NCBI GenBank assembly: GCA_027052175.1
Contig: JALUFE010000084.1
Span: 1-34,008 of the forward strand
DNA: 34,008 nucleotides
Direction: 5' to 3'
Source of the DNA: Helicobacteraceae bacterium
Lineage (GTDB): Bacteria > Campylobacterota > Campylobacteria > Campylobacterales > Sulfurimonadaceae
The notes under the pieces were generated by a model. The model saw only the letters and a list, made by a program, of their open reading frames with translations, searched no databases and was not told where the DNA came from. Below, piece after piece: positions 194-23,087 of this stretch; position 1 is the first letter of the stretch; each line of letters opens with the position of its first letter. A program made the position numbers and the translations under genes.

Positions 194-300
194 GTTTAAC
201 CTAAACGATCCAACAACCTCCACAAAACGTGGGCAAGTCCACCAAAGCCGTGGCACCTACAAGCACAAAGCAAAATAGGTAAAGGAAAGGAAAAAACAAT

Positions 301-654: not shown

Positions 655-660
655 AAACGA

Positions 661-686
661 AACCGTGTCGTCACGGCACGGTTTTG
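661..686 (+). terminator. Rho-independent terminator after rplT
   Basis: A perfect 7-bp stem, AACCGTG at 661-667 with CACGGTT at 677-683, encloses a 9-nt loop and is followed by a short T run. On the other strand the stem is also followed by a T-rich stretch, so it may stop transcripts arriving from rarA as well. Confidence 0.75.
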
Positions 687-771
687 GCTCTCAATCTTTC
701 CACTTTTCCCATAAAAATCCATGCTTCTTGCTTGATTCTTATCCGTTGTTCAAGCTGTTGAGGCGATTGTA

Positions 772-4721: not shown

Positions 4722-4728
4722 AAAGAAG

Positions 4729-4734
4729 ATTATA
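4729..4734 (-). promoter_or_regulatory. Putative -10 element for the kdsD operon
   Basis: A perfect TATAAT is read on the minus strand. Transcription would start at about 4722-4723, almost on the kdsD ATG at 4721, so the message could be leaderless. No convincing -35 was seen. Confidence 0.5.
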
Positions 4735-4759
4735 TCCTATTTAAGGAAATTCCACTGCT

Positions 4760-7650: not shown

Positions 7651-7983
7651 CTATGCTCAGCAGGTAAGTAATGAGAAAGAAATAATTGCATACCCACTAC
7701 GTTTCACTCGTATTTGTATGTAAAGCCACGCAGTCGTAGTCATTCTATTTCAAGTCGATTTTCGTGCAAAGACGAGCGAAAATCATCTCACACATATAGG
7801 GCAGCAAGAAAAAGGCTTATCTGACGGTGTTAGATTTTCTCACCTTAGCTACGGTTATGCTTTCGAAAATCTGCCTTGCATCTATACCTTTTTACTGCGA
7901 CATATCTTCTTGACATACGCAAAACTGACAACTTCCCTTATGAAACTATTCACAAGGAAATGCTTTCACGTTATGCATAAATG

Positions 7984-8005
7984 ATTGTTACCAAATTGTT
8001 ACCAA
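7984..8005 (+). repeat. Two tandem copies of ATTGTTACCAA
   Basis: An 11-nt unit, ATTGTTACCAA, occurs twice without a gap (7984-7994 and 7995-8005), one helical turn apart and immediately upstream of a -10 element. The spacing suits a pair of protein-binding half-sites. The same bases also provide the likely -35. Confidence 0.6.
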
Positions 8006-8013
8006 ATTATATT
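7985..8013 (+). promoter_or_regulatory. Putative promoter of the barrel/lipoprotein pair
   Basis: TTGTTA at 7985-7990 and TATATT at 8008-8013 are separated by 17 nt. A second candidate -10, TATACT, is at 8013-8018. A Shine-Dalgarno AAGGAAG follows at about 8036-8042, just before the ATG at 8046. The promoter contains the tandem 11-nt repeat, so occupancy of the repeat would affect transcription. Confidence 0.45.
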
Positions 8014-8045
8014 ATACTAACAAATATTTTTTATAAGGAAGAACT

Positions 8046-8948
8046 ATGTGTTTTCTTCGCTTTTCCAAACTTGTTTTTTTCTTGAGTGCCATATTTTACA
8101 CGCTATCTCTTGATGCATCGGAATTTCAATATGCAAAAGGAACGCTCGACATCAAAGGTGGATTTATCGGCTTGGATTCGAGTCTCGATGCCGACATCGA
8201 CACCTATACGATAACGGAAAAACATAAAAACATATTTTCAAGCAATTGGTACTATCACTACGATATCACCTGGTACGACTCCGAAAAAATGGTCAATGCA
8301 CAGCAGAGTTTCAACAACGCAAGCGGTACTCTCTTTGGATCGAACTACAATCCGACCGGGCTGATCCCCGCTATAAACTATAGACTGCAAGGCCTCGATG
8401 CCAATGTCGTCCTGGGACGGGATCTCTACCATAAAGACAAAAGAACATTTTTCGGTCTCGGTCTGGCGGTGGGGATCTCTCTGCCATGGATAGACAGCGA
8501 GAAGGACTCTTCCAATAACGACGATACGTCAGATACCATAATGAAACTAATGAAAAAGAGTAAAACGAAAATGTACACGTACAAGGTGGGGCCAAGCATC
8601 AACGCAAGCTATGCCTTCAGCAAATATTTGATGGCATACTGCAATGCGACGGTCGCCTATCAAAGCGGCTCTATCAAAAACGACTACATCCATGCGGATT
8701 TCAATGCAGAGGGTATTTTCCAGGAGTATGACGCCGGTATAAAGCTGCAGCCTTTCGCAGAAGATTTCAAAACGGGATTCATAACACTCTCTCCACGTAT
8801 TTACGCCTCTTTCGGCTGGCGTTATGTCTCATGGAAACTCGAAGATGTCTCTTTGGATGTGACGGGAGCCGGTGCACCGCTGCCACCAAGCGATTTTGAA
8901 AGCTCCAGTTCGATGGGCTACTTGGGGATAGGATATGATTTCTTCTAA
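8046..8948 (+). CDS. Putative outer-membrane beta-barrel protein, function unknown
   Basis: I do not recognise a named family. The 300-residue product starts with a hydrophobic signal peptide (about 1-24, cleavage likely after TLSLDAS). The rest alternates polar and aromatic residues in the way of membrane beta-strands (for example SNWYYHYDITWYD and PRIYASFGWRYVSW). It ends in IGYDFF, a terminal phenylalanine as expected for BamA substrates. No cysteine-rich or enzymatic motif was seen. The following lipoprotein gene overlaps its end by 14 nt, so the pair is probably coexpressed. The nearest description is porin-like or OmpW/OmpA-barrel-like protein; this is inference from pattern only. Confidence 0.65.
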   Translation: MCFLRFSKLVFFLSAIFYTLSLDASEFQYAKGTLDIKGGFIGLDSSLDADIDTYTITEKHKNIFSSNWYYHYDITWYDSEKMVNAQQSFNNASGTLFGSNYNPTGLIPAINYRLQGLDANVVLGRDLYHKDKRTFFGLGLAVGISLPWIDSEKDSSNNDDTSDTIMKLMKKSKTKMYTYKVGPSINASYAFSKYLMAYCNATVAYQSGSIKNDYIHADFNAEGIFQEYDAGIKLQPFAEDFKTGFITLSPRIYASFGWRYVSWKLEDVSLDVTGAGAPLPPSDFESSSSMGYLGIGYDFF

Positions 8949-9810: not shown

Positions 9811-9855
9811 GGATTTTAAAAGCGGTTTCACGATAAGTGGATTATAAGCAATTTA

Positions 9856-9864
9856 TGATATAAA
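9856..9864 (+). promoter_or_regulatory. Putative extended -10 element for thiG
   Basis: TGATATAAA, an extended -10 (TGn plus TATAAA), lies 27 nt before the thiG ATG. I saw no THI-box-like motifs in the 81-nt gap, so no TPP riboswitch is supported. Confidence 0.4.
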
Positions 9865-9891
9865 TATAGAAAAGTTAGAAGAGAGCAAAGT

Positions 9892-10671
9892 ATGAGCGAT
9901 ACACTGAAAATAGGAAAATATGAACTGGGATCCCGACTCATTGTCGGCAGCGGAAAATACAAAGATTTCGAAACGACAAAAGAGGCGACGCTGGCTTCAG
10001 GCAGTGAGCTGATCACTGTAGCGGTGAGACGTCTGAACATCACCGACCCGAATAAAGAGAACCTTCGCGATACCTTCAAAGGAACGAACGTCAAGTTCCT
10101 CCCCAACTCCGCAGGATGTGTCACAGCCGAAGAGGCTATCACGACCTTCAGATTGACCCGTGAAGCAACCGGGATTGATCTCATCAAACTCGAAGTGATC
10201 GGCGATACGCAAAAAACACTCTATCCGGATGTCTTGGAAACCATAAAGGCATGTGAAGTGCTTGCCAAAGAGGGCTTTACGATTATGGCCTACACTTCCG
10301 ACGATCCGATCATGGCAAGACGCCTCGAAGATGCGGGAGCACACGCCGTTATGCCGCTGGCAGCTCCCATAGGCAGCGGACTTGGTGTTCAAAACTCTTA
10401 TAATGTGGTCTTTGTCAAAGAAGCCGTCAGCGTTCCCGTTATCGTCGATGCAGGGATAGGCTGTGCGAGCGACGCGGCCTATGCGATGGAGTTGGGTGCT
10501 GACGGTGTGCTGACCAATACCGCCATAGCACAGGCGCAAGATCCCATAGCGATGGCAAAAGCGATGAAAGCCGCCGTCGAAGCGGGACGTCTCAGTTACC
10601 TTGCAGGCCGCATCCCCAAAAAGCCGTATGCAACGGCAAGCTCACCGGTTGACGGGTTGATACAGTTCTGA
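9892..10671 (+). CDS. thiG: Thiazole synthase
   Basis: ThiG joins deoxyxylulose 5-phosphate, dehydroglycine and ThiS thiocarboxylate into the thiamine thiazole. The 259-residue length and motifs fit: LIVGSGKY near the start, the VAVRRLN segment at 44-50, the Schiff-base lysine at about K99 in [17 protein letters not shown] in the phosphate-binding loop, and a PVIVDAGIG segment. Its partners thiS, thiF and thiH are not adjacent; instead a small membrane-protein gene overlaps its stop by one base and rsmE follows. The enzyme itself looks complete. Confidence 0.96.
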
Positions 10672-11078
10672 TGGATTATATGATGCATGCGGGGCTTCTT
10701 GCCCATAAATACCTTATCTACTCTTATATCGCCGTTTTGTTTTTTCATCTGTTCAAACTGCTGCGCGCTGATGACATCACAGCTTATAGAAAGTTTATGC
10801 TTATCTACAACCCGATGCTCACTCTTCCAACCCTGGGGGGCGTGCTGCTAAGCGGACTTGTGATGTTTACGGCGATCCACTTCGAGTTCAATGTCGCAAC
10901 CTCCACAATGATAGTCGCTTCCATCGGTCTTGTCATCCATGAATTCAAGCGAGCCAGAGATCTCCGCTATACAACCAAAGAGGAGTTTGATGCATACAAA
11001 AAAAGAGCGATGCGTTATCTGCTTACCAATCTTGCTCTTGTCTTTGTCACCACATTCATAGGAGTGAAGTTTAGCTGA
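10671..11078 (+). CDS. Small integral membrane protein, unknown function
   Basis: The 135-residue product has about four hydrophobic stretches (near 12-28, 43-67, 72-90 and 112-132), with a charged loop, KRARDLRYTTKEEFDAYKKRA, between the third and fourth. Histidines H6, H12, H26 and H70 in or next to helices recall small haem-binding or CopD-like membrane proteins, but no motif settles this. Its ATG shares one base with the thiG stop and its stop shares one base with the rsmE ATG, so it is the middle gene of a tight operon. The function is not assigned. Confidence 0.8.
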   Translation: MDYMMHAGLLAHKYLIYSYIAVLFFHLFKLLRADDITAYRKFMLIYNPMLTLPTLGGVLLSGLVMFTAIHFEFNVATSTMIVASIGLVIHEFKRARDLRYTTKEEFDAYKKRAMRYLLTNLALVFVTTFIGVKFS

Positions 11079-11749
11079 TGATCTTTCTTTATAACGAAGA
11101 TGCCGGCAAGGAGCTGCTCAAGCTTCGCGGCGAAGATCACAAATACCTCATCAAGGTCCGCCGTCACCAAAAAGGCGATACTTTGCATCTACGAAGCGAA
11201 AACGACCCCCACATCTTTCATACTTATATCATCACCGACATTACACCAAGAGAGCTCTATTTGAAACTGCAAAGCAGTGAGGAAAAAGCGATCCTGCCTC
11301 CAAGGAGGCTTCATATCGGCTGGTGTATGATCGATCCAAAAAGCATCGAAAAGGTGCTTCCCTCTCTCAACGAAATGGGTGTGGGCAAGATCAGCTTCAT
11401 CTACTGCGCACGCAGTCAAAAAAACTTCAAACCCGACCTCAAACGACTCCACCGCATTTTGCGCTCCTCCAACCAGCAGTGTGGACGTAGCGATTTTATG
11501 GAGTTTGCGATCTACAACCGTCTTGAAGACTTTTTAAACGAATGTCCCGATCTCAAAATATTTGACTTTTGCGACAAAGTTTTAAAAGAGCGAAGTGATT
11601 TTGAAGATGTGCTCATAGGCTGTGAGGGTGGCTTCTCAAAAGAGGAGAAAAAGCTGCTTAGCTCCAAAGAGGTCTTCAGACTCGACACCCCGTTGGTACT
11701 GCGCAGCGAGAGTGCCGTCTGTGCGGTAGCGGCAAAGATACTCCTCTAA
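11078..11749 (+). CDS. rsmE: 16S rRNA (uracil1498-N3)-methyltransferase
   Basis: RsmE methylates U1498 of 16S rRNA in the decoding region. The 223 residues include an N-terminal PUA-like barrel (about 1-70, with HKYLIKVRRHQKGD) and a SPOUT methyltransferase domain. The knotted SAM site shows as LIGCEGGFSKEE followed by LDTPLVLRSESAVCAVAA; many homologues have LRAETA at that point. The family's conserved segment R-SQKNFKP is also visible. The stop overlaps the convergent GlcD-like gene by 4 nt, leaving no room for a terminator between them. Confidence 0.92.
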   Translation: MIFLYNEDAGKELLKLRGEDHKYLIKVRRHQKGDTLHLRSENDPHIFHTYIITDITPRELYLKLQSSEEKAILPPRRLHIGWCMIDPKSIEKVLPSLNEMGVGKISFIYCARSQKNFKPDLKRLHRILRSSNQQCGRSDFMEFAIYNRLEDFLNECPDLKIFDFCDKVLKERSDFEDVLIGCEGGFSKEEKKLLSSKEVFRLDTPLVLRSESAVCAVAAKILL

Positions 11750-13131
11750 TCCAGCCCCATTTTTGAAGGGTTGAGGATATTGTTGGGGTCAAACGCTTTT
11801 TTGATCGCTTTGAAAAGTGCCATCTCGGCATCAGTGAAAGCCATCTTCATGTAAGGCGCTTTGGCAAGCCCTATGCCGTGTTCGCCGCTGAGCGTTCCAC
11901 CGAGATCAATGGTGGCTTGGAAAACCTCCTCGATCGCTTTGTAGCCTATCTCGACCTGTTTTGGATCGCTGCCATCGACCATCACGTTGGTATGGACGTT
12001 GCCATCCCCCGTATGACCGAAGCACGGGATCTTAATGTCGTATTTATCCGCTATGGCGTAAAACTTCTCCAACAACTCCGGAAGTGCCGAGCGCGGTACG
12101 GTGACATCTTCGTTGATCTTCTTACTGCCATACATCGTGATCGCCTGCGAAGCGTTCCGTCTGGCAAACCACAGGTCAGCAGCCTCTTTTTCGTCTTTTG
12201 CTATTTTGAACTCGTAGCAGCCGTTCTCCCGAAAAACTTTCTCGATCTGTGCAAGCTGGAAGTCGAGATCCTGCTCAAGATTGCCGTCCACATCGGTAAC
12301 AAGCAGTGCTCCGGCATCCGTCGGCAGTCCCTTGTGGTAGGTCTCCTCAACCGCACGGATGGTGAGATTGTCCAAAAACTCCATCGCAACAGGAGTTACA
12401 CCGCTTGCCATTGTCTTGTAAACCGCTTCCATTGCTTCTGTGACGCTTTTGAAGATACCCATCGCCGTTTTGGTGAGCTTTGGTTTTGGAATCAGCTTGA
12501 GCGTAATTTCGCTCAAAACCGCTAAAGTTCCTTCACTCCCTACCAAAATACCCGGGATGTTGTATCCCGCCACATCCTTGATGGTGCGCTTCCCGGCACG
12601 GATAACTTCACCGTTTGGCAACACTGCACGGATCGCCATAACGTAATCTTTGGTGATACCGTATTTCGCCGCGCGCATCCCACCGGCATTTTCGCTGACG
12701 TTTCCGCCTATCGTAGAGTACTCTTGACTTGCAGGATCTGGTGGATAGAACAATCCTACCTCTTCGACGGCTTTTTGAAGATCTTTGTTGATCACTCCCG
12801 GCTGCACCACGGCAACCATGTTTTTCATATCGATCTCTAAAATTTTATTCATATGTTTCTCAAAAGCAAGCACGATCCCGCCCTTGCTCGGCAGTGCACC
12901 GCCCGTAAAGCCGCTGCCCGCCCCTCGCGGCACGATGATAATGCCGTGCTCGTTGCAGTAGTGCAAAACCGCTGCGATATCCTCTTCGTTTCGCGGAAAC
13001 ACCACTGCATCCGGCTCAAAATGATTGCGCGTCGCATCGTAGGAGTAAGCGATCATATGCGCTTTGTCATCATGGACATTTTCTTCACCAAGCAGTTGTT
13101 TGAAATGTTGTATATGCGTTTTGTCTATCAT
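11746..13131 (-). CDS. glcD: FAD-linked oxidase, GlcD-like (glycolate / D-lactate dehydrogenase)
   Basis: The 461-residue flavoenzyme belongs to the VAO/PCMH family of 2-hydroxyacid dehydrogenases. The FAD-binding PCMH domain covers about 38-215, with PRGAGSGFTGGALP at 68-81 and NVSENAGGMRAAKYG. The C-terminal substrate domain has the HTGDGNVH and SGEHGIGLAKAPYM motifs that carry catalytic histidines. Glycolate or D-lactate is the probable substrate; reading cannot decide which. No GlcE or GlcF partner is adjacent. It overlaps the PgbA-like gene upstream by 4 nt; I recall HP0508 and HP0509 forming the same neighbour pair in H. pylori. Confidence 0.9.
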   Translation of the reverse strand: MIDKTHIQHFKQLLGEENVHDDKAHMIAYSYDATRNHFEPDAVVFPRNEEDIAAVLHYCNEHGIIIVPRGAGSGFTGGALPSKGGIVLAFEKHMNKILEIDMKNMVAVVQPGVINKDLQKAVEEVGLFYPPDPASQEYSTIGGNVSENAGGMRAAKYGITKDYVMAIRAVLPNGEVIRAGKRTIKDVAGYNIPGILVGSEGTLAVLSEITLKLIPKPKLTKTAMGIFKSVTEAMEAVYKTMASGVTPVAMEFLDNLTIRAVEETYHKGLPTDAGALLVTDVDGNLEQDLDFQLAQIEKVFRENGCYEFKIAKDEKEAADLWFARRNASQAITMYGSKKINEDVTVPRSALPELLEKFYAIADKYDIKIPCFGHTGDGNVHTNVMVDGSDPKQVEIGYKAIEEVFQATIDLGGTLSGEHGIGLAKAPYMKMAFTDAEMALFKAIKKAFDPNNILNPSKMGLD

Positions 13132-13931
13132 TTTTTTTCTCCAAGACCAAGCTTTTTAGCAAGCTTGGTGACATTGTTTTCAGTTGAGCTCTCTATGCTT
13201 TTTATAAGTGTTTCATTGTCAGGGTTGTACCGGTAAAGCAGCTCATAGTAGTATGGCTCATAATCTTTCAATCTTCCGCTCCCCGCACCAAACCAGTTGG
13301 CTTCGATTTTTTCGACCCTGCTGTAGAAAGGAAGCTTTTTACTCTTTTCTCGCAACGGAGCGTTTTGAACGTTGAGAATCTTAAAAGACTGGCAGTCTAA
13401 GGTATAAAGCTTCTGTTCAAGATAGAGAAATAGCAATCCCGTTGTGACATTATTACAAAATCCGCTGAAATCCTCTTTGAGCGGTGTTGGATGTCCATGG
13501 TAAGAAAGCAGTGTCGCAAAAACGTCCGGATGGACGAAAGTCTCATCTTTCATAGAACGTGTCAGCGTATAGTATATCTCTTCATTTGGGGCTATGAGCA
13601 GACCTCTGTCATACCCATAAGCCAAAATCACCTTGTCTCCCGCCTTGGGTTTGAGTTTGAGAGTCGGAAGATTGTTGTTGCGAAAGAGCGTATAGGGGGC
13701 AAGCCTGAGTGTCGCTCTTTTTTGTCCTTTCTCAAACGAAACAACCGTTGCGGCAGCTATGATCATACTGTGGTCCGCAGCCAGCTTGCGCACAACGAAA
13801 CCGCTGATACCGACATCCGCTTTAGGTATGGAGATAGTCGCTTCATCTCCTTTGACAACGGTGAGTCTGCTCTCTACATAGGCGCCAAAGAGTGCCAGTT
13901 TCATACAAATAAGAAAAAGTATATATCTCAT
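13128..13931 (-). CDS. PgbA N-terminal-domain protein (plasminogen-binding-protein-like, secreted or envelope)
   Basis: The 267-residue product has a signal peptide (about 1-17) and then the domain I associate with the N-terminus of H. pylori PgbA: VESRLTVVKGDEATISIP, DVGISGFVVRKL, KPKAGDKVILAYGYDRGLLIAP and the HPDVFATLLSYHGHPTP segment. It ends in two lysines, like plasminogen-binding proteins, but a marine host makes plasminogen binding an unlikely primary role. The assignment leans on position: it stands divergent from csd3 and upstream of glcD, as HP0508 does. It lacks the long repetitive C-terminus of PgbA. Confidence 0.75.
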   Translation of the reverse strand: MRYILFLICMKLALFGAYVESRLTVVKGDEATISIPKADVGISGFVVRKLAADHSMIIAAATVVSFEKGQKRATLRLAPYTLFRNNNLPTLKLKPKAGDKVILAYGYDRGLLIAPNEEIYYTLTRSMKDETFVHPDVFATLLSYHGHPTPLKEDFSGFCNNVTTGLLFLYLEQKLYTLDCQSFKILNVQNAPLREKSKKLPFYSRVEKIEANWFGAGSGRLKDYEPYYYELLYRYNPDNETLIKSIESSTENNVTKLAKKLGLGEKK

Positions 13932-13958
13932 CTACTCACTTTTCATTTTTTTGACGCT

Positions 13959-13964
13959 ATTATA
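13959..13964 (-). promoter_or_regulatory. Putative -10 element for the pgbA-like/glcD operon
   Basis: A perfect TATAAT is read on the minus strand 27 nt from the start codon at 13931. The 102-nt divergent gap must also contain the csd3 promoter; TAATCT at 13997-14002, preceded by TGC, is one candidate. Confidence 0.45.
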
Positions 13965-14033
13965 ACAAATAAGTTATACACTAAGCTATTTTTTGCTAAT
14001 CTACCAAACAATTTAACTTTCGGATAATAATCG

Positions 14034-15263
14034 ATGAAATTTCTCATACTTTTTTTCTTGCTTCTCTCGGCTCTCTATGCGGCACATGTGGAAAATTACC
14101 GCTGGAAAAACAACGAAACCTATCTGCTCTTTTTAAAGCGTCTTCATCTACCGCAAAAGAGTCTCTACTATGACCTCGACAAAGAGGATCAGAAGATGAC
14201 CGAGGACATCCGCAGCGGCTTCAACTACCAGATCCTCTACAACGACCAAGACGGCTCGATCGAGCAGCTGCTTATCCCGATCAACGACGAACTGCAAATT
14301 CACATTTATCATGATAAAAAAGGAAAATATCGGTTCGAGACGATCCCGATTGTTAGCAGCACAAAAACAAAAGCCTTTATGCTAAGCATCGAGCGCTCCC
14401 CCTACTACGACATCATCAAAAAAACCGGCTCAAAGAAGCTCGCAACAATCTTCATGCAAGGCTACAAACACTCGCTTGACTTTAAAAACGGGATCCGCAA
14501 AGGAGACAGACTGGCGATGATCTATGAGCAGAAATACCGTCTCTCACGCCCTTTTTCGATGCCTACACTCAAAGCCTCCGTCATCGAACTTCACAAAAAG
14601 AAGCACTTTATCTACCTTAACAGCGATGATCGCTACTACGACGAAAAGGGCAAACAGATAGAGGGTTTCTTGCTTGCACGACCGATCCCCGGTGCGCGCA
14701 TCACCTCTCGCTTCACCCGCAAACGGTGGCATCCGATCTTGCACAAGTACCGCGCACATCTCGGCGTGGACTTTGGAGCCAGAGCCGGTACGCCGATCCA
14801 TGCAGCAGGAAGTGGACGCATCATCTTTGCAGGACGCACACGCGGGTATGGCAACCTCATCAAGATACGCCACAAAGACGGCTATGTCACCCTCTATGCC
14901 CATCAGCGCAAATTCCGCCGCGGCATCCACAGAGGCAAATATGTCAAAAAGGGGCAGATCATCGGTTATGTCGGCTCGACGGGACTTTCAACTGGACCGC
15001 ATCTACATTTTGGTCTGTATAAAAACGGCCGTGCCATCAACCCGCTACGTGTCGTACAGGTCACGGTCAAGCAGCTTCGAGGCAAAAGTTTGCGCGCCTT
15101 CAGACAGCTCAAAGCCAACTACGACCAGAGTCTTCTGCTGCATCTACAAAATGAAACCCCATTTCAAAATGAGCCGAAGTTCGAACGACTTTGCTACTGT
15201 TTTGACAGAAACGCCAAAAACATCATGACAAAAGCCAAAAACAATGAAACAAGTACACATTGA
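14034..15263 (+). CDS. csd3: M23 family peptidoglycan peptidase, Csd3/HdpA-like
   Basis: The 409-residue envelope protein starts with a signal peptide (about 1-16). Two regulatory domains precede a LytM/M23 zinc peptidase at about 215-345. Metal ligands are visible as H242 and D246 (HLGVD) and H325 (HLH at 323-325), with H290 as the second motif histidine (YAH). In Helicobacter, Csd3 trims peptidoglycan as a DD-carboxypeptidase/endopeptidase needed for helical shape, and is about the same length. It heads a ten-gene run: the NUDIX gene starts 20 nt before its stop. The long basic tail after the peptidase domain is also seen in the family. Confidence 0.9.
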   Translation: MKFLILFFLLLSALYAAHVENYRWKNNETYLLFLKRLHLPQKSLYYDLDKEDQKMTEDIRSGFNYQILYNDQDGSIEQLLIPINDELQIHIYHDKKGKYRFETIPIVSSTKTKAFMLSIERSPYYDIIKKTGSKKLATIFMQGYKHSLDFKNGIRKGDRLAMIYEQKYRLSRPFSMPTLKASVIELHKKKHFIYLNSDDRYYDEKGKQIEGFLLARPIPGARITSRFTRKRWHPILHKYRAHLGVDFGARAGTPIHAAGSGRIIFAGRTRGYGNLIKIRHKDGYVTLYAHQRKFRRGIHRGKYVKKGQIIGYVGSTGLSTGPHLHFGLYKNGRAINPLRVVQVTVKQLRGKSLRAFRQLKANYDQSLLLHLQNETPFQNEPKFERLCYCFDRNAKNIMTKAKNNETSTH

Positions 15264-15822
15264 CGAAATCATCCCGTTAGAAGATCCCAAGTTCATAACC
15301 CCTGTTCGCATCAACTACACCCAAAACGGCAGAAAAAAGAGCTGGGAGGCCATCAAAAGCCACAACAGTGTCGCCGTTTTGCTCTACCACAAAGAAAAAG
15401 ATGCCTTTTTGCTTGTTAGGCAGCTGCGTGTTACCACACTGCTTAACAACGAAGAGGACGACGGATATACGTACGAACTTTGCGCCGGTATCGTCGACAA
15501 AGATCTACCCCTTAAGCAGATCGCCAAAGAGGAGATATACGAAGAGTGTGGCTACGATGTGCCTTTAGAACAGATCAAACGTGTCACCTCCTACTACACA
15601 AGCGTAGGTTTCAGCGGAGCGAAGCAGACGATGTACTACGCCGAGATCGACGAGAGTATGTATGCCCATGAGGGCGGAGGGATAGAAGATGAAGAGATAG
15701 AGCTCTTTTTCCTCCCTATTAGCGATGCAAAAACTTTCATGTTCAATGAGAGCTACAAAAAGACGCCGGGGCTTATCATGGCATTTTACTGGTTTTTCGA
15801 CGACATAAAGAGCGAAAAATGA
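15244..15822 (+). CDS. NUDIX hydrolase, UDP-sugar/ADP-sugar diphosphatase-like (NUDT14-type)
   Basis: The 192 residues form a NUDIX hydrolase that would cleave a nucleoside diphosphate sugar. The box at 82-104 (AGIVDKDLPLKQIAKEEIYEECGY) keeps the metal-binding EExxEE-G core but lacks the first canonical Glu (Leu instead) and the Arg (Glu instead). This is the pattern I recall for UDP-glucose pyrophosphatases such as NUDT14, and the preceding YELC also matches. Its ATG is 20 nt inside csd3 and its stop overlaps the GT4 gene by 4 nt. Beside a glycosyltransferase, a role in clearing or controlling nucleotide sugars is a reasonable inference. Confidence 0.85.
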   Translation: MKQVHIDEIIPLEDPKFITPVRINYTQNGRKKSWEAIKSHNSVAVLLYHKEKDAFLLVRQLRVTTLLNNEEDDGYTYELCAGIVDKDLPLKQIAKEEIYEECGYDVPLEQIKRVTSYYTSVGFSGAKQTMYYAEIDESMYAHEGGGIEDEEIELFFLPISDAKTFMFNESYKKTPGLIMAFYWFFDDIKSEK

Positions 15823-17009
15823 AAATATTGAAAGTGATACACGGCTTCCCGCCGGATTATATGGCGGGAAGTGAAGTGTACTCCTACCATCTTACCAAAG
15901 AACTGCGAAGGAGTCAAAATGTCGATGTTTCCGTTTTTACACGCGTGGAAAACGAATTTGACGAAGCGTATAAAGTTTATGACGAAAATATCGACGGCAT
16001 ACGGATCAGGAGAGTGAACAAACCCAAACGGGATTATCTGTATGAGGAGAAATTTTTCGACAATGCCATAGATACGCTTTTCGAGAAGTATTTGTCGCAA
16101 GTAAAACCCGATATAGTGCACATAGGGCATTTGAGCCATCTTTCCACAAACATCGTACATATCGCCAAATCATACGGGATTCCCGTAGTTTACACCATCC
16201 ACGACTTTTGGTTGTTCTGCGTAAAAGGACAGATGATAAACTATAAAGGAGATATCTGCGAATCCCCTTCAACAGAAAGATGCATGGTCTGTTCAGGAAA
16301 TTTCATGGTGAGCAGACAAGCCGTCGAAAATGTTTTTGCGCATATGCGACGAGTGATCGATATGATCGACATCTTCACCTCTCCCTCCCATACGTTGAAA
16401 AATTTTTTCATAAAGCAGGGGGTTTTGGAAAATAAAATCAAATATCTCAAATACGGCTTCGATAAAACCAAGATCAAATACAAAAAGAGAGTTTTCGACA
16501 AAAACTCCAAAATAAGATTTGGATTTATGGGAAGAGTTATCCCGACAAAAGGGATCAGGGTTTTGGTAGAAGCGTTTGAGGATTTAACCGACGAGAAACT
16601 GCATATCTACGGCAGTATCGGTTCTCAAAAAAGATTTTTGGAAAGGGAGAACATCGTTTTCGAAGACGCTTACGACAACGACGATATCGATGCGGTACTG
16701 CAAAATATCGATCTTTTGATAGTTCCCTCCATTTGGTACGAAAACTCCCCTTTGGTGATCCAAGAAGCTTTTTTGGCGGGAGTCGGAGTCGTGACATCCG
16801 ACATAGGCGGAATGGCCGAGCTGGTCGAAGACGGAATGAACGGATTCACTTTCAAAGCGGGCGATAGCGAAGATTTGAAAAGAGTACTTTTGAAAATAAC
16901 AAACGACCCCACGGTTCTAAACACCCTGCAAACGAGCAGAAATGCCGTTGTGGATATCAAAGAAGATGCACGAAAGATGCTCGAACTCTATGAAAGTTTA
17001 CTACGATGA
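15819..17009 (+). CDS. GT4-family glycosyltransferase (GT-B, retaining)
   Basis: The 396-residue cytoplasmic enzyme should transfer a sugar from a nucleotide donor. The N-terminal Rossmann half begins HGFPPDYMAGSEVYSYHLT and contains HDFWLFC (129-134) followed by three further cysteines (C147, C155, C158), a pattern common in surface-polysaccharide GT4 enzymes. The C-terminal half has GFMGRVIPTKG (235-245) and the EX7E motif E308/E316 in WYENSPLVIQEA, diagnostic of retaining GT4. Acceptor and donor are unknown. It is the first gene of a four-gene cassette joined by 4-nt overlaps and looks more AT-rich by eye than csd3. Confidence 0.9.
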   Translation: MKILKVIHGFPPDYMAGSEVYSYHLTKELRRSQNVDVSVFTRVENEFDEAYKVYDENIDGIRIRRVNKPKRDYLYEEKFFDNAIDTLFEKYLSQVKPDIVHIGHLSHLSTNIVHIAKSYGIPVVYTIHDFWLFCVKGQMINYKGDICESPSTERCMVCSGNFMVSRQAVENVFAHMRRVIDMIDIFTSPSHTLKNFFIKQGVLENKIKYLKYGFDKTKIKYKKRVFDKNSKIRFGFMGRVIPTKGIRVLVEAFEDLTDEKLHIYGSIGSQKRFLERENIVFEDAYDNDDIDAVLQNIDLLIVPSIWYENSPLVIQEAFLAGVGVVTSDIGGMAELVEDGMNGFTFKAGDSEDLKRVLLKITNDPTVLNTLQTSRNAVVDIKEDARKMLELYESLLR

Positions 17010-17959
17010 AATTACAGCGCTTAACGATAGACACCAATCCCGACGAGTGCAATCTCCACTGCATCATGTGCGATACACACAGCGTTTACAATACCCAAAA
17101 ACACACTCGAAAGTCGATGAGCAAAGAGCTGCTGGAGAGAATCCTCGATGAAGCGATCTCTCTGAAGCTGGATGAAATCATACCTTCCACCATGGGAGAA
17201 CCCCTTGTCTACAAGCATTTCGGTCTGTTTATCGAAAAACTCAAAAAAACCAAAACCAGACTCAATCTCACGACCAACGGAACTTTTCCCATTTTCGGAA
17301 TCGAAAAATGGGCACAACTGCTGCTACCCGTTTTAAGCGACATAAAAATCTCCATAAACGGCATCGATCCGCAAGTGAACGAAAGGATCATGAGAAATGA
17401 CGATACGCTTGAAAAAATAGAAAATATCAAAAAATTCACACTCCTTCGAGATAAGATCAATCCCAATGCGACGATCACACTCCAAGTCACGTTTTTACAA
17501 TCAAATCTGAACTCGTTGGAAGAGATTATTCAATTCGCCGTAGAAAACGGTATCGACAGGGTCAAAGGGCATCATCTTTGGGTCACGTACGACGAAATAC
17601 GCTCCGAATCGTTGCAAACGACTTCCAATCTGGCAAACTGGAACGATTTCATAGAAAAGATAGAAAAATACAAATCTCGGATAAAACTGGTCAATTTCGA
17701 AAAGATCGAGCGCAATGAGGGTAAAGTTCCACCGAACTATATCTGCCCTTTTTTGGGAAAAGAGCTATGGATCGACCATGAAGGCAACTTCAATATCTGT
17801 TGTGCACCTTCTGACAAAAGAGTCTCTTTGGGAGATTTCGGCAACATTAAAGACAGCGGCATCGAAGATGTTTTTCATTCGCAACGCTATTTGGATTTGG
17901 TCAAAAATTACAAACAAAAAGAGATTTGCCAAAACTGTTCGTTAAGGATACCCAGATGA
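17006..17959 (+). CDS. Radical SAM / SPASM-domain protein
   Basis: The 317-residue enzyme has the radical SAM cluster motif CxxxCxxC at C15, C19 and C22 (DECNLHCIMC), then a TIM-barrel region with TMGEPLVY and LTTNGT segments. A C-terminal SPASM-type domain (about 240-317) carries C247, C265, C266, C308 and C311 for an auxiliary Fe-S cluster. Such enzymes modify peptides (RiPPs), proteins, or sugars and small molecules. No precursor peptide is evident nearby, and the glycosyltransferase next door points at least as much to a glycan or small-molecule substrate. ATGA-type overlaps join it to both neighbours. Confidence 0.9.
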   Translation: MKLQRLTIDTNPDECNLHCIMCDTHSVYNTQKHTRKSMSKELLERILDEAISLKLDEIIPSTMGEPLVYKHFGLFIEKLKKTKTRLNLTTNGTFPIFGIEKWAQLLLPVLSDIKISINGIDPQVNERIMRNDDTLEKIENIKKFTLLRDKINPNATITLQVTFLQSNLNSLEEIIQFAVENGIDRVKGHHLWVTYDEIRSESLQTTSNLANWNDFIEKIEKYKSRIKLVNFEKIERNEGKVPPNYICPFLGKELWIDHEGNFNICCAPSDKRVSLGDFGNIKDSGIEDVFHSQRYLDLVKNYKQKEICQNCSLRIPR

Positions 17960-19548
17960 TCACTCTCTCGTTGGATGAAACGCACCATATAAAAGAGGGT
18001 AAACCTTTATATGATACGAGATACAAAAAAGTCATGAGCTTTCATGAAGGTATCGCACCCGTAGAAGGGAACGAGAAGGCTTTTTTCATAGATATGCACA
18101 ATAATCGACTTTTCAACCGTTTTTTTGAAAAAGCTTACGGCTTCTATGAAGGAAAAGCCGCCGTCAAAGAGAAAGAGGGATGGTTTCATATAGATACAAA
18201 CGGGAACGATGTCTATAGTGAGCGATACGCCTGGACGGGCAACTACAATGAAGAGAGATGCATAGTCAGAGATTTCGAAGGAAACTATTTTCATATCGAC
18301 GAAACCGGCAAAAGAGTATATGAACAAAATTACAGCTACGGAGGCGATTTCAAATACGGCATCGCGGTGATCGTGAATGAAAGCGGCAAATCGACGCATA
18401 TCGACCGCAACGGCAAGCTGCTACACTGCAAGTATTTTGATGAATTAAATATCTTCCATAAAGGATTCGCGGTAGCCAAAGACGAAAAAGGGTATTTTCA
18501 TATCGATAAAACGGGAAAAGCGCTTTACCCGCAAAGATACCGCAAACTCGAAGATTTCTATAACGGACGGGCTCTGGCTACGACGTTCCAGGGCAATAAA
18601 ATCGTGCTCAACGAATCCGATTTCAGCGAAATCGAACTCACTAAACCCCAAATCGACAAAAACGAAATATTAAACGAGGCGTTCGGCTATTTCAACTATC
18701 AAATCCTGTTTGCGATTTTAAAGCTGGATATTTTAAAAAATATAAAAAATTTCGATCGTTTGGATCTGCCTGAAATCTCCAAAAAGCTCATTTTTCGATG
18801 GCTTGTATCTAAAAAGCTGATAGATCGCGATTATCGTCTGACTCCCCTTGGAAAAGTGATAGAACGAGAATTGAAAGATATTATCCTGTATTGGAGAGAT
18901 TTGCCGTTTAAGACATCGGCATATATGACGGAGTCTTTAAAGCAAGGCGACGAGTTTTTTTCAAAGTTGTACGGAAAAGAGTTTTTCATTTTTATAGAAG
19001 AGGACCAAGAAGCCAATGCTCTGTTTCAAAAAATAAGCGCCTACTACACCGACGACTATGACCGACTTTTGCCCTATCTGCATCTGACAAACGAAACGGT
19101 GTGCGATATCGGCGGAGGCAATGAAAAACTGGCACAAAAGATACGAAAACTTTATCCGAACGTCACAATGACGATAGCGGACAAATTCGTAAAGACAGAA
19201 GATGGTTTTCGTAAAAAAATCAATTTTTTCGAACCTTTCGATATACAATGTGACATCTTCGTCATGAGCAGAGTCCTCCATGACTGGAACGATGAAAAAG
19301 CGCTGTTGATACTGAGAAATCTCTCTAAAAATATGGATGCCGATACGGTGCTGTATCTTTTTGAGACCATCGTTCCCGACGATTATCGTGATAGAGGTAT
19401 AACACTCTCTTTTCATCTGCTGAATTTTCTTGGAGGCTATGAAAGAACATTGGACGATTTTAAAAATTTACTCGATCGCGCCCGTTTAAAAATCGTAAAA
19501 ACACAGACCGAAAATCTGATTTCACTGATACAAGTAGTAAAAAAATGA
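17956..19548 (+). CDS. WG-type repeat protein fused to a COMT-like SAM O-methyltransferase
   Basis: The 530-residue protein has two parts. Residues 15-220 hold six imperfect 34-36-residue repeats of WG/KWG type (pattern xFHIDxxGKxLYxxRYxxxxxFxxGxAxV), in which the usual Trp is mostly Tyr or Phe. Residues 235-530 match a plant COMT-like O-methyltransferase: a winged-helix dimerisation region (about 237-305), a SAM loop CDIGGGNEKLAQ (383-394), and SRVLHDWNDEKALLILRN (438-455) with the probable catalytic base H442. I chose ATG 17956 because AAGGA at 17944-17948 fits it and it makes a 4-nt overlap; an ATG at 17926 is less likely. The repeats may bind the substrate or a partner. The combination is unfamiliar to me. 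Confidence 0.85.
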   Translation: MITLSLDETHHIKEGKPLYDTRYKKVMSFHEGIAPVEGNEKAFFIDMHNNRLFNRFFEKAYGFYEGKAAVKEKEGWFHIDTNGNDVYSERYAWTGNYNEERCIVRDFEGNYFHIDETGKRVYEQNYSYGGDFKYGIAVIVNESGKSTHIDRNGKLLHCKYFDELNIFHKGFAVAKDEKGYFHIDKTGKALYPQRYRKLEDFYNGRALATTFQGNKIVLNESDFSEIELTKPQIDKNEILNEAFGYFNYQILFAILKLDILKNIKNFDRLDLPEISKKLIFRWLVSKKLIDRDYRLTPLGKVIERELKDIILYWRDLPFKTSAYMTESLKQGDEFFSKLYGKEFFIFIEEDQEANALFQKISAYYTDDYDRLLPYLHLTNETVCDIGGGNEKLAQKIRKLYPNVTMTIADKFVKTEDGFRKKINFFEPFDIQCDIFVMSRVLHDWNDEKALLILRNLSKNMDADTVLYLFETIVPDDYRDRGITLSFHLLNFLGGYERTLDDFKNLLDRARLKIVKTQTENLISLIQVVKK

Positions 19549-20102
19549 TCTATCTGATTCGACATGCGGAAAAAAAGAGCACTTTGCCGGACTCCGGATT
19601 GACACGACGGGGGATTTTGGATTGCAGATCGTATGCCGACAGCCTGGTCCAAAACGGTATAAAACTGGATCGTATAATCACCAGTCCCATACAAAGATGT
19701 GTGCAAACAGCTTCCGAAATTGCGTATATACACGGTATTGGTATTGAAAAGTCCGACTTTTTAGGGGATCCCGGTGTTTTTGTAACGGATGACAAGATCG
19801 CAGGTGAAATCTTCAACCGATACAAACTGGTCGATATCATAAACATGCAGCTTACTCACAAAAGTTTAAACGGCTTTGCACCTTTGAAAACCGGCAGCTT
19901 GAAATTACTCGAATTCATGTCGCATTATCGAGAAAGCAATGTTTTGATGATCTCGCATGACGCCATCATTATGCCTTTTGTATGCCATTTTTCAAAAATT
20001 AAAAAAATACAAGAGAAAGATATAGTAAACTATCTCGATGGATATCGTATTTTATTGCAAGACAATAAGTGTACGATACGAAAGATATCACAAAGAGCGT
20101 AA
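19545..20102 (+). CDS. Histidine phosphatase superfamily protein
   Basis: The 185-residue protein has the branch-1 histidine phosphatase core: RHA (R6, H7 phospho-acceptor) in LIRHAEKK, R51 in ITSPIQRCVQTA, and the second histidine H138 in LMISHDA. The acidic proton donor is not obvious. The size is close to SixA, CobC and related small phosphatases. It could dephosphorylate a sugar phosphate or another small intermediate of the cassette, or a phosphohistidine protein; the sequence does not decide. Its ATG overlaps the methyltransferase stop by 4 nt. It is the last cassette gene, and the conserved-looking small gene before mlaE follows after 3 nt. Confidence 0.87.
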   Translation: MIYLIRHAEKKSTLPDSGLTRRGILDCRSYADSLVQNGIKLDRIITSPIQRCVQTASEIAYIHGIGIEKSDFLGDPGVFVTDDKIAGEIFNRYKLVDIINMQLTHKSLNGFAPLKTGSLKLLEFMSHYRESNVLMISHDAIIMPFVCHFSKIKKIQEKDIVNYLDGYRILLQDNKCTIRKISQRA

Positions 20103-20105
20103 AGT

Positions 20106-20312
20106 ATGGCAAAGAAGAAAAAAAGCATTGACTTCGCAGATAAAGAGATATATTTTGAACTGGAACAGGAGCGCTACAGGGTGATGCGCTTTTATCCTTC
20201 AAACATGACGGTGGATGTGACACGGTATATCGAAGGCAAAAAGAGCGGTCAGACAAACCTCGCGTTTGCCCACCTGCCAAAAGCGGTCAAACAGCTTATA
20301 AAACCGAAGTAG
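20106..20312 (+). CDS. Small basic conserved-looking protein upstream of mlaE
   Basis: The 68-residue product starts with a lysine run (MAKKKK), has no cysteine, no signal peptide and no membrane segment, and ends LPKAVKQLIKPK. I do not recognise a domain. It lies 3 nt after the phosphatase gene and 6 nt before mlaE, so it is cotranscribed with both. Base composition looks like the mla genes rather than the AT-rich cassette, so it probably belongs with the transporter. It lacks the leader-core organisation expected of a RiPP precursor. Confidence 0.75.
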   Translation: MAKKKKSIDFADKEIYFELEQERYRVMRFYPSNMTVDVTRYIEGKKSGQTNLAFAHLPKAVKQLIKPK

Positions 20313-20318
20313 GCGAAG

Positions 20319-21095
20319 ATGTTGGAGAGAATCGGAGAGAAAACACTCTCAAGTCTGTCTTCTATCTTTGACGTTCTGCGCTTTATCTTTCTCTGTCTTG
20401 TCCATATCCTGCTCCCCTCTTCTTATAACCCCGCGATGATTATGGTGCTTGTAAAGCAGATTTACTTTACAGCTGTGGGGATCTTGCCGCTCTTTTTCTT
20501 TATGTCGGTAATCTTTGGCAGTATTATTATCGGGGTAGTCATCTCGTTAGCGATGCAGTATGGTCTGCAAGAAAACATCGGCTCCATTCTTGTCAGCTTC
20601 AGTGTGGATGAGTTCGCTCCTTTCTTCACCGCCCTGCTTATCTCGCTTCGCTCCTCTACTGCCGTCAATACCGAGATAGCCACGATGAAGGTCAACCACG
20701 AACTCGACACACTCAGGGAGTATCGCATCGATTTGATCGATTATCTTTTCGTGCCGCGTATCATCAGCGGGATAGTGAGTGTAACTTCGCTCTCCATCCT
20801 CTTTGCCATCATCATGCTTGCAAGCGGCTATATTGTCGCACTCTTTATGATGGGGATGGATCTGCATACCTACAAGATGCTGCTACTCCAAGCCATCGAG
20901 CCAAAAGATCTCATCGTCCTGATCTCCAAAGGGGTGGCCTTTGGATTTGTGACGATGGTCATCCCCATCTACAGTGGGCTTCATGCCTTTGACAGCTACA
21001 CAGCCATCCCCATCTCCGTCCTCAACGGGATGGTCAAGCTCTTTATCGCAATCTTTGTTATCGAGGTGACATCATTACTACTGCAGTCTCTGTAA
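20319..21095 (+). CDS. mlaE: MlaE-type ABC transporter permease (phospholipid transport)
   Basis: The 258-residue inner-membrane protein belongs to the MlaE/YrbE permease family, which moves phospholipids between membranes with an MCE protein. It has about five or six membrane segments (near 15-38, 45-80, 95-112, 145-175 and 195-255). The family motif appears in the cytoplasmic loop as EIATMKVNHELDTL, close to the AELGTMKV consensus that contacts the ATPase. The last codons contain GAGGTGA at 21063-21069, which acts as a Shine-Dalgarno for the next frame. Campylobacter iamB is the comparable gene. Confidence 0.9.
   Translation: MLERIGEKTLSSLSSIFDVLRFIFLCLVHILLPSSYNPAMIMVLVKQIYFTAVGILPLFFFMSVIFGSIIIGVVISLAMQYGLQENIGSILVSFSVDEFAPFFTALLISLRSSTAVNTEIATMKVNHELDTLREYRIDLIDYLFVPRIISGIVSVTSLSILFAIIMLASGYIVALFMMGMDLHTYKMLLLQAIEPKDLIVLISKGVAFGFVTMVIPIYSGLHAFDSYTAIPISVLNGMVKLFIAIFVIEVTSLLLQSL
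21063..21069 (+). promoter_or_regulatory. Strong Shine-Dalgarno inside mlaE for the degenerate mlaF
   Basis: GAGGTGA, nearly the full anti-Shine-Dalgarno complement, precedes an in-frame ATT at 21074 by 4 nt. No ATG, GTG or TTG exists in that frame between here and 21194. It marks a non-AUG start as the likely beginning of the next gene. Confidence 0.5.
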
Positions 21096-21547
21096 AACTC
21101 TTCGCTCGCTATGAGGAGATCGCCCCCTATATCCAAAACGACCGGAAGCATATCCTCATCAGCGAAAAAACCCCCCTGCTTTCCAATCTTGATATGAAAG
21201 AGAACATCGCCCTTATAAAAGAGGTCCATCATAAAAAACCACGTGATGCCGCCGAAACGGAAGCAAGAGAACTGCTTGAGAAGCTCGGTGTCGGGCATGT
21301 CGCAGATCTTCGCAGCAACCGCTGCAGCAAAGAGGAGCTCTTTTATGTCATGACAGTACGCGCCTTGATGTGTGATGTGGAGAGAGTGTTTATCAAAACA
21401 CCGCTGCATCTTTTGGAAAATCTCGCCAATATCTGCACGATCATCCAAAATATAGAAAAGTTACATCCAAACAAAGGTATAATAATACTCGATACAAAAG
21501 CGAACCTGCATCACTACAAGGAGTGTGGATGTCCTATAGCAGAATGA
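21074..21547 (+). CDS. Degenerate MlaF-position ABC ATPase-like protein without Walker motifs
   Basis: The product is about 157 residues if it starts at ATT 21074, or 117 from ATG 21194. A Q-loop-like segment (HILISEKTPLLSNLDMKENIAL) and a helical region (ARELLEKLGVGHVADLRSNRCSKEELFYVMTVRAL) align in order with ABC ATPases (LSGGQ region, then RALxxxPxxLLLDEP). However, Walker A is absent, the signature reads CSKEE, and Walker B reads VFIKTP. It cannot hydrolyse ATP by the usual chemistry. ATG 21194 lies inside the conserved segment, so the earlier start is preferred. It lies between mlaE and mlaD, overlapping both, in an undamaged frame, which suggests retention rather than decay. Campylobacter iamA is, as I recall, a full ATPase. 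Confidence 0.6.
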   Translation: MTTAVSVKLFARYEEIAPYIQNDRKHILISEKTPLLSNLDMKENIALIKEVHHKKPRDAAETEARELLEKLGVGHVADLRSNRCSKEELFYVMTVRALMCDVERVFIKTPLHLLENLANICTIIQNIEKLHPNKGIIILDTKANLHHYKECGCPIAE

Positions 21548-22443
21548 AAACCGCTGTCGGTCTCTTTGTAGTTGTCTTTCTTGTAAGTCTGCTGGCCTTT
21601 ACCTACTTTCTGCTCGATGCCAAAGGAGTGTTTGAGAAGCATTACCGCTACTATTTCGTTACCGACTCCGCTTCATCGCTCTCCATAGGGATGCCTGTAA
21701 AATTCTCCGGATTTACCATCGGTTCGGTAGAAAAGATGGAACTTCAGGATGACGGTCATGTCAAAACGATTTTCTCCGTCAATGCGAAAAACAGAAAGTG
21801 GATCAACCGCTACACCTATCTGTTGCTGAAAAAACCGCTGCTTGGCTCACCGCATATCGAGGTACTGGCCACAAACGGTATCGAACCGCTCAAGCCAAAC
21901 GCAAAACTTCCTATCATCATTACCGATGATATCAACGACCTTGTGACCAAATTCGAGCCGGTGGTGGATAAGCTGCTGCATATCATCACCAACATTCAGA
22001 CCATAACCGACACGATGGCGGATGCCAACTCATCGCTCAACAAAACGATGGAAAATCTCGAACTCTTTAGCGACAAGCTCGCTCACAGCGACTCGCTGCT
22101 GACAAGCATCATAGGCGATAAAAACGCTACAAAAAGCATCATCGACTCAATCCAGACAACGAACCAAATTCTCAAAGATGTCCAAAACACCACACATGCT
22201 CTCCACAGCGACATCATCCAACCGACATCGCAAACGATCAAAACACTCCATTCCATCCTGATCGATGTAAACCAAAAGCTCAAAACGCTCCAGCCGCTTG
22301 TACAAACCATCGGCAAATCGGACAAAGACATCGAGGCACTCCAAGAGAGTATCCAGACAACGATAGAGAAGACCAACCAGCTTATGGAAAAACTCGATGC
22401 CGTTTTGATTGAGAAGAAAAGCAAGGAGGTACAGCTCCCATGA
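21529..22443 (+). CDS. mlaD: MlaD/MCE-family lipid-transport protein
   Basis: This is a 304-residue periplasmic protein anchored by one N-terminal membrane helix (about 8-30). The MCE domain follows (about 35-115): YFVTDSASSLSIGMPVKFSGFTIGSVEKM and a LLLKKPLLGSPHIEV segment. A long helical, coiled-coil-like C-terminus (about 140-300) would build the hydrophobic conduit or reach the outer membrane. I chose ATG 21529 because AAGGAG at 21518-21523 is correctly spaced; the GTG at 21523 overlaps that site. It overlaps the degenerate ATPase gene by 19 nt and the lipoprotein gene by 4 nt. Confidence 0.92.
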   Translation: MSYSRMKTAVGLFVVVFLVSLLAFTYFLLDAKGVFEKHYRYYFVTDSASSLSIGMPVKFSGFTIGSVEKMELQDDGHVKTIFSVNAKNRKWINRYTYLLLKKPLLGSPHIEVLATNGIEPLKPNAKLPIIITDDINDLVTKFEPVVDKLLHIITNIQTITDTMADANSSLNKTMENLELFSDKLAHSDSLLTSIIGDKNATKSIIDSIQTTNQILKDVQNTTHALHSDIIQPTSQTIKTLHSILIDVNQKLKTLQPLVQTIGKSDKDIEALQESIQTTIEKTNQLMEKLDAVLIEKKSKEVQLP

Positions 22444-23087
22444 TACGCTCATTTATCCTGCTTCTTGCTCTGCTTTTTGGCGGCTGCAGCTTCAAAAGCG
22501 AGCCCAATCTCTGGGAGTACAAGAGTGCGCAAAGTTTTGAAAGCTACAAACAGAACTTCCTCAAAGGCAACGACCTTCTAGCCAGGCACGATCTCACTCA
22601 AGCGATCAAACATGCCAAAAGCAGCGCCGATCTCTCGCAACTTGCTTCGATCTACCTTGGCAAATGCGCCTTGAACAAAGCTGTAGGCATAGAAGATCAG
22701 TGTCAAGAATACGAAAAGATAGCAGACCTCATCACCTGCCCAAAACTGCAAAACTACTACCGCTTTTTACAAAAAGATCTCACCCATCTCGATGTTAAGT
22801 ATCTCCCCACACGCTACCAGGATTTCGCCTCCTTGCTCAAAAGCGGCAATCTACAAAAAGCCAATGCCAAGCTCCAGCAGATGGAAAATCCCGTATCGAT
22901 GATGCTTGCACTTGCACTGCTTGGCAAGAACGCCACCAAAGAGAGTATAGAAGCCACACTGCAAAAGGCATCTTACTACGGATACAAAAAAGAGGTACTG
23001 CATCTGCTACAGGAGCTGAAAACGAGAGAGGATGATCCAAACAAAAAAGCGAAACTACAAAAAAAGATGGATATTTTGACAAAGTAG
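22440..23087 (+). CDS. Mla-operon lipoprotein, helical-repeat
   Basis: The 215-residue product has a lipoprotein signal ending in FGGC (C16). The mature part is almost entirely helical, with repeat-like stretches (NDLLARHDLTQAIKHAKSSAD, GNLQKANAKLQQMENP) resembling TPR-like folds, and cysteines near 77, 88 and 99. It ends the Mla set and overlaps mlaD by 4 nt; I recall a lipoprotein gene (Cj1649) in this place in Campylobacter. An outer-membrane partner of the MCE protein is a reasonable inference. Confidence 0.85.
   Translation: MIRSFILLLALLFGGCSFKSEPNLWEYKSAQSFESYKQNFLKGNDLLARHDLTQAIKHAKSSADLSQLASIYLGKCALNKAVGIEDQCQEYEKIADLITCPKLQNYYRFLQKDLTHLDVKYLPTRYQDFASLLKSGNLQKANAKLQQMENPVSMMLALALLGKNATKESIEATLQKASYYGYKKEVLHLLQELKTREDDPNKKAKLQKKMDILTK

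Follow-up and report, generated by a model that had tools for sequence, protein, structure and literature searches.

A conserved glycosyltransferase, radical SAM, WG-repeat and phosphatase operon, horizontally acquired in a Helicobacteraceae genome, that may make a modified glycoside

In the genome of a Helicobacteraceae bacterium (GCA_027052175.1), genes for a glycosyltransferase, a radical SAM enzyme, a WG-repeat methyltransferase and a histidine phosphatase follow one another between a NUDIX gene and the mla set. The questions this locus raises are whether the four genes belong together, how they came to this site and what they could make. We refer throughout to the window, by which we mean the whole stretch of DNA that was analyzed, the 34,008 nucleotides of contig JALUFE010000084.1. 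An earlier note, made from the letters of the window, had described four complete genes with 4-nt overlaps, and the ORF coordinates and Pfam assignments agree with it. All four genes are on the plus strand and all Pfam matches are above the curated cut-offs. The first encodes a retaining GT4 glycosyltransferase of 396 aa (15819-17009; Glyco_trans_1_4, PF13692, E 1.7e-23; Glycos_transf_1, PF00534, E 2.5e-23), and the second a radical SAM enzyme of 317 aa (17006-17959; Radical_SAM, PF04055, E 3.9e-16; SPASM, PF13186, E 1e-8). Then come a WG-repeat and O-methyltransferase protein of 530 aa from the ATG at 17956 (17956-19548; WG_beta_rep, PF14903, E 2.2e-7; Methyltransf_2, PF00891, E 2.7e-18) and a SixA/CobC-like histidine phosphatase of branch 1 with 185 aa (19545-20102; His_Phos_1, PF00300, E 1.8e-12). 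The four ORFs are intact and all three junctions between them are 4-nt ATGA overlaps; the start of the GT4 gene overlaps the stop of the NUDIX gene in the same way.

The residues expected of working enzymes are in place. The Pfam match and an EX7E motif (E308...E316) put the glycosyltransferase in the GT4 family, and across 79 aligned homologues both glutamates are 100% conserved and four cysteines (134, 147, 155 and 158) are invariant. In the phosphatase R6, H7, R51 and H138 are invariant in 33 homologues.

The cassette is horizontally acquired and was inserted at this site. Its borders are the NUDIX (YffH/AdpP) gene on the left (15244-15822, plus strand) and a conserved small protein of 68 aa on the right (20106-20312, plus strand), both of which lie outside the cassette and are present at the empty site. 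We found that site in G003, a genome that belongs to the same genus and is 100% complete; there the 68-aa gene and mlaE come straight after the NUDIX gene. In blastn, window positions 9854-15800 align at 73% to G003 positions 215-6141 (locus L127), and 20101-22778 align at 70% to 6166-8849. Only 24 bases separate the two aligned blocks in G003, and the segment from 15801 to 20100, with the cassette, is absent there. In G001, a second genome of the genus, the NUDIX gene also adjoins mlaE. The earlier note had proposed an insertion between the NUDIX gene and the mla set and had judged the GC to be lower by eye, and both points hold. GC per gene is 0.40-0.42 for the four cassette genes against 0.44-0.52 for 15 neighbors, and a codon-adaptation-like index is also lower, at 0.62-0.72 against 0.71-0.78. 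The window genome is 85.7% complete and 5.2% contaminated; both flanks align to G003, which places the contig in the genus and rules out a binning error as the source of the cassette. Among 60 genomes searched as relatives, a WG gene was found, besides the window's own genome, only in G043, which is of a different family.

We found no recognizable mobility gene at the insertion in the window and no convincing target duplication at the cassette borders. A direct repeat at the borders, AAAGAGCG (15807 and 20092), was discarded as evidence because it occurs six times in the window. Carriage by a prophage or plasmid was rejected for the window, which has no mobility genes there, and so was a functional tie of the cassette to mla or csd3, since the flanks are merely the insertion site. 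Within the mla set a short conserved ORF (21096-21547) stands between mlaE and mlaD, where mlaF would be expected. It is also in G003 and had no Pfam ABC match, and it is possibly a degenerate or replaced MlaF.

To see the same genes elsewhere, GTDB species genomes were scanned with a three-sequence alignment of the radical SAM enzyme alone, which gave at least 396 relatives. The best 80 of these were kept, together with campylobacterial loci, the window and phage WO; ORFs were called and ten domain profiles were searched. The loci were picked by closeness to the window's radical SAM enzyme, ORFs were called mechanically and many contigs are truncated, and outside Campylobacterota the counts are to be read as lower bounds and not as frequencies: GT4 is adjacent to or fused with the radical SAM enzyme in 81 of 84 loci, a WG domain is present in 78/84, a methyltransferase in 52/84 and a His-type or Tyr-type phosphatase in 56/84. 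The phosphatase is thus frequent but not constant, and some of the 28 loci where none was seen are cut contigs. Of the six loci without WG, L016 and L066 meet the contig end and L037 has a WG domain further off. Core neighbors overlap in 172 of 248 pairs, with a median gap of -4, and the 84 loci hold 41 GT4-radical SAM fusions, 34 WG-methyltransferase fusions and two proteins in which an epimerase, GT4 and the radical SAM enzyme are joined. This defines a constant partnership of GT4 and the radical SAM enzyme with a WG domain. The window has the same arrangement, with GT4, the radical SAM enzyme and a six-repeat WG domain adjacent on one strand and a phosphatase gene behind them.

The examined loci come from at least 12 phyla of bacteria and archaea. 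By record title the bacteria are Campylobacterota, Gamma- and Alphaproteobacteria (with Rickettsiales), Bacteroidota, Cyanobacteria, Nitrospinae, Chloroflexi, Verrucomicrobia, Planctomycetes, Acidobacteria, Myxococcota and Leptospiraceae, and the archaea are Lokiarchaeota, Heimdallarchaeota (Asgard) and ANME-2. In a sample of 397 Campylobacterota genomes, strong WG matches occurred in five besides the window's, all with the GT4-radical SAM pair. Probes for the radical SAM enzyme and for WG, run independently, matched the same 3 of 72,556 plasmids, all from Arsenophonus. Among phage records the radical SAM enzyme matched two, both Wolbachia WO, and one of those two was the sole WG match; in IMG/VR we found one distant radical SAM contig and no WG match. 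The radical SAM and GT4 trees are congruent (Mantel r 0.91, where the maximum of 2000 permutations was 0.27), and the correlation between the radical SAM and WG trees is 0.55. The window sits in the tree with Campylobacterota and sulfur-bacterial Gammaproteobacteria.

Four unrelated genes joined by chance, or carried as genomic-island cargo, would fit the low GC and an insertion that has no recognizable mobility gene, but the same block recurs in about 80 loci from many phyla with its overlaps and fusions. This co-occurrence refutes chance neighbors, and we give that explanation next to no credence. The earlier note had taken the four genes for one unit; the same families adjoin across phyla and we did not see the genes scattered in relatives. 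The evidence supports the cassette being a local copy of a widespread conserved operon that works as one functional unit, and not an orphan.

The radical SAM enzyme has the CxxxCxxC motif of the radical cluster followed by C-x17-CC ... CxxC, and all eight cysteines are present in 84/84 homologues. None of these 84 sequences has further SPASM cysteines. This refines the earlier reading as radical SAM/SPASM: in place of a full seven-cysteine SPASM domain there is a truncated motif of the twitch type, with one predicted auxiliary cluster, as in BtrN. In BtrN of the butirosin pathway the CxxxCxxC motif is likewise joined by CX9-15GX4C...CX2C cysteines. BtrN oxidizes an aminocyclitol and its auxiliary cluster is a likely electron acceptor (PMC9012708), and BlsE of the blasticidin S pathway decarboxylates a glucuronoside (PMC3715490). 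Both act on cyclitol or sugar substrates, but their identity to the window enzyme by fold is only 14-15%. A confident model (pLDDT 94.4) gave BlsE as the best balanced match among the Foldseek top 50 (TM-score 0.74/0.72), whereas by E-value SuiB ranks first and the peptide-modifying enzymes SuiB and anSME score better than BtrN and BlsE. Profile searches of the PDB were similarly divided, with BtrN best for a small seed alignment (E 5.8e-5) and EpeE and anSME above it for a larger one.

The third protein divides into a WG domain (residues 1-235), with six repeats of about 35 aa that conserve H-I and G, and an O-methyltransferase (residues 236-530). It was modeled with a pLDDT of 96.2, and the methyltransferase has the LaPhzM/MmcR/DnrK type of fold. 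The top 50 of the fold search were methyltransferases only, and by sequence no solved structural relative of the WG domain was found; that it forms a closed propeller is our assumption. We found nothing relevant in the literature on WG repeats with radical SAM enzymes or RtcR. The SAM-binding motif DIGGG and an HDW motif are intact in the window, and nearly every relative keeps them too. Neither motif survives in the loci that bear PhyH, namely the Wolbachia/Rickettsiales branch, L083 and Arsenophonus (L003:15071-16666; L033, L034, L043, L080, L083; L136:10227-11936). Going by these motifs, the methyltransferase half of the WD0614-like proteins in this branch, annotated as methylation, is probably a pseudo-methyltransferase. 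WG domains of the same type are also fused to a class II aldolase or a P-loop kinase in other loci (L062:6074-7147, L042, L012:3101-4396).

Our working proposal, to which we give about even chances, is that this is an ancient mobile operon of the order (epimerase)-GT4-radical SAM-WG(/methyltransferase)-phosphatase, horizontally acquired here, which makes a modified glycoside in the cytoplasm. GT4 would use a nucleotide sugar to glycosylate a small phosphorylated acceptor, and the sugar it moves could be a uronic acid. The twitch enzyme would take a hydrogen from the sugar and oxidize or decarboxylate it, as BtrN and BlsE do with their substrates, and its auxiliary 4Fe-4S cluster would accept the second electron. 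The methyltransferase may then cap a hydroxyl, and the histidine phosphatase may strip the phosphate and so release the product. The WG domain could be the scaffold, or the platform that holds the substrate, in a complex of these enzymes. We read it as a scaffold because loci in which the methyltransferase is a separate gene, missing or degenerate still have it; conservation and fusions are what this role is based on. The substrate and the order of the reactions are likewise inferred. The window operon has no epimerase; two distant homologues are encoded elsewhere in the genome and could supply that step.

The accessory genes of other loci appear to fit small-molecule sugar chemistry. An epimerase is present in 28/84 loci, with 6 more on the opposite strand, a nucleotidyltransferase in 22/84 and a carbamoyltransferase (Carbam_trans_N/C) in 8/84. 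We also see nucleotidyltransferase together with Y_phosphatase3, P-loop kinases, UDP-glucose dehydrogenase and class II aldolase. His-type and Tyr-type phosphatases swap at the same place in the operon, as would be expected if dephosphorylation is required. No transporter or nucleotide-sugar gene is constant across the loci. In two campylobacterial loci a fusion of a P-loop kinase and a nucleotidyltransferase comes directly after the phosphatase (L131:10834-12066, L132:12253-13458). Where the earlier note spoke of a biosynthetic or decorating pathway, the single unit is borne out and the pathway itself stays a proposal, now sharpened by the twitch enzyme and the accessory genes. The weak likeness to BtrN and BlsE counts against a glycoside, as do the better Foldseek E-values of peptide-acting enzymes, the rank of EpeE and anSME above BtrN with the larger alignment, the 28 loci where no phosphatase was seen and the want of a constant transporter or nucleotide-sugar gene.

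If the substrate were instead a surface glycan, the cassette would modify LPS, capsule or exopolysaccharide. GT4 and epimerase families are common in LPS and EPS loci, and UDP-glucose dehydrogenase is near four of our loci. Such a role was proposed for the Undecim genes WD0611-WD0613 and WD0620 of Wolbachia (PMC9203015). However, among the families listed for the operon-contiguous neighbors (n=77) there were 3 ABC and 1 MatE, and no Wzx, Wzy or Wza. The operon is also carried by Asgard and ANME archaea, where LPS is not expected, and the mla and csd3 flanks of the window mark only the insertion site. We consider surface decoration unlikely, though it deserves to be kept in mind. For the set of activities as a whole, a pathway to a soluble glycoside is the best reading; genes for export and polysaccharide assembly are rare among the operon neighbors and there are archaeal carriers.

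Another possibility is that GT4 and the radical SAM enzyme act on a protein, either the WG-repeat protein or a small one. Peptide-acting radical SAM enzymes rank high in the fold search, WG is the most constant partner (78/84) though its fused methyltransferase is often absent or degenerate, and proteins of 99-115 aa are upstream of the operon in about 15 Bacteroidota loci. But these small proteins are not general, and WG has several enzymes as fusion partners (methyltransferase, class II aldolase and P-loop kinase), as would be expected of a scaffold. There is no precursor-sized ORF between the overlapping cassette genes and no RiPP precursor gene in the window operon, where the overlaps leave no room for one; the neighboring 68-aa gene exists without the cassette. 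Protein or peptide modification is in our judgment quite improbable.

The Bacteroidota loci also bring up stress or conflict. There a divergent RtcR-like regulator with CARF, AAA and HTH domains (PADLOC RtcR_PspF1, E 1.6e-75) precedes the operon on the opposite strand, often with a 99-115 aa protein, and McrBC or type I restriction genes adjoin some loci. The regulator is found in 21 of the 84 loci, chiefly Bacteroidota (L013, L016, L020, L023-L026, L028, L045, L049, L051, L055, L057, L061, L067, L073 and others). With the recurrent Pol-beta nucleotidyltransferases and P-loop kinases, one could picture a kinase, nucleotidyltransferase, phosphatase and GT4 that modify nucleotides or RNA, as in tRNA hypermodification, and are induced by RtcR-type sensors. 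Yet RtcR is absent from the window and from most other phyla, and the carbamoyltransferase, O-methyltransferase and epimerase suit small molecules better. With the PADLOC models the four core proteins match no family beyond a generic viperin similarity of the radical SAM enzyme, and we found no membership in a known anti-phage system. We think it distinctly doubtful that the enzymes act on nucleotides or RNA.

A bolder version of the glycoside pathway, which we regard as a rather long shot, makes WG a dedicated carrier or assembly platform. On it GT4, the radical SAM enzyme and optional tailoring enzymes (methyltransferase, carbamoyltransferase, nucleotidyltransferase, kinase and aldolase) would build a radical-modified glycoside, and Wolbachia/Rickettsiales and Arsenophonus would have kept the methyltransferase fusion only structurally. 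If true, this would be a glycoside pathway shared by bacteria and archaea and equipped with a scaffold domain of its own.

How does the operon compare with systems that already have names? The GPMC system pairs a radical SAM enzyme with a GT4. Its radical SAM model TIGR04311 gives the window enzyme 57 of 400 bits, and the GT4 model NF038229 is a weak match with 32 of 400 bits. TIGR04317, for the radical SAM maturase of a tungsten oxidoreductase, gives 93 of 380 bits, and it and TIGR04311 are the best-scoring curated radical SAM models. These scores are far below the curated cut-offs, so we place the cassette in neither system. No NCBIfam model reaches its cut-off for the window's radical SAM enzyme, and the best E-values across 77 members are in the same weak range. 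The searches define a large family of twitch radical SAM enzymes that has no NCBIfam model of its own.

The earlier note had found no named system to match the set, and this did not hold up: the named but functionally uncharacterized Undecim Cluster of Wolbachia prophage WO (WD0611-WD0621; core UC2-UC4) has a homologous core with the same GT4-radical SAM order. WD0613 and WD0614 are UC3 and UC4 (PMC9203015). The window GT4 is 35% identical to the N-half of WD0613 (E 8e-76), the radical SAM enzyme 44% to its C-half (E 4e-92) and the WG half 42% to WD0614 (E 2e-61). These alignments make the cassette a homologue of the core WD0613-WD0614, to which WD0612 is added in most relatives. As in UC4, a WG-repeat and methyltransferase-like protein comes directly after the radical SAM enzyme. 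A proteomic study from 2015 (PMC4701759) had described the WD0614 WG-methyltransferase fusion and pointed out homologues with the same synteny in a small number of free-living bacteria, and in December 2025 the Undecim functions were still described as unknown (PMC12801941).

The window cassette is nevertheless not the Undecim Cluster proper. UC3 is a GT4-radical SAM fusion, where the window has two separate overlapping genes that match its halves, and the window operon is without the UC2 epimerase and UC5-UC8 (PhyH, ABC transporter and aldolases). The cluster is associated with prophage WO, whereas the flanks in the window share synteny with G003 and are free of phage genes. WD0614 has no SAM motif but the window methyltransferase is intact, and the window operon ends, unlike the cluster, with a histidine phosphatase. 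Named carriers of the Undecim-type set are Wolbachia WO, Rickettsia pREIS2, Cardinium and Phycorickettsia. We also observed an Undecim-like set on plasmids of about 20 kb from Arsenophonus of louse flies (CP132904.1, our L136, 6933-15370; CP132908.1; CP132902.1), with an epimerase, GT4 and radical SAM separate and without a listed gene, a WG-methyltransferase, PhyH and a threonine aldolase; in CP132904.1 it stands together with panB, panC and panE. The available part of PMC9203015 does not name these plasmids as carriers.

Closer relatives have the window's unfused order of GT4, radical SAM, WG(-methyltransferase) and phosphatase. These are Arcobacter cryaerophilus LMG 9065 (L006), G043 (L004/L005), Thiosymbion (L007) and Thioploca (L009), whose radical SAM enzymes are 55-59% identical to that of the window and form one clade with it. 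They differ from the window in an NAD-dependent epimerase upstream, and G043 and Thioploca are without the methyltransferase half. Because some carriers, among them Arcobacter (Aliarcobacter) cryaerophilus and Azospira oryzae, are in culture, one can look for the product in organisms open to cultivation and mutation. The core was known in outline; new are its extent across phyla and into archaea, the form without fusions, accessory genes such as the phosphatase, and the insertion. Archaea are among the 12 or more phyla that carry the operon, and the Undecim core represents a single form of this much broader set.
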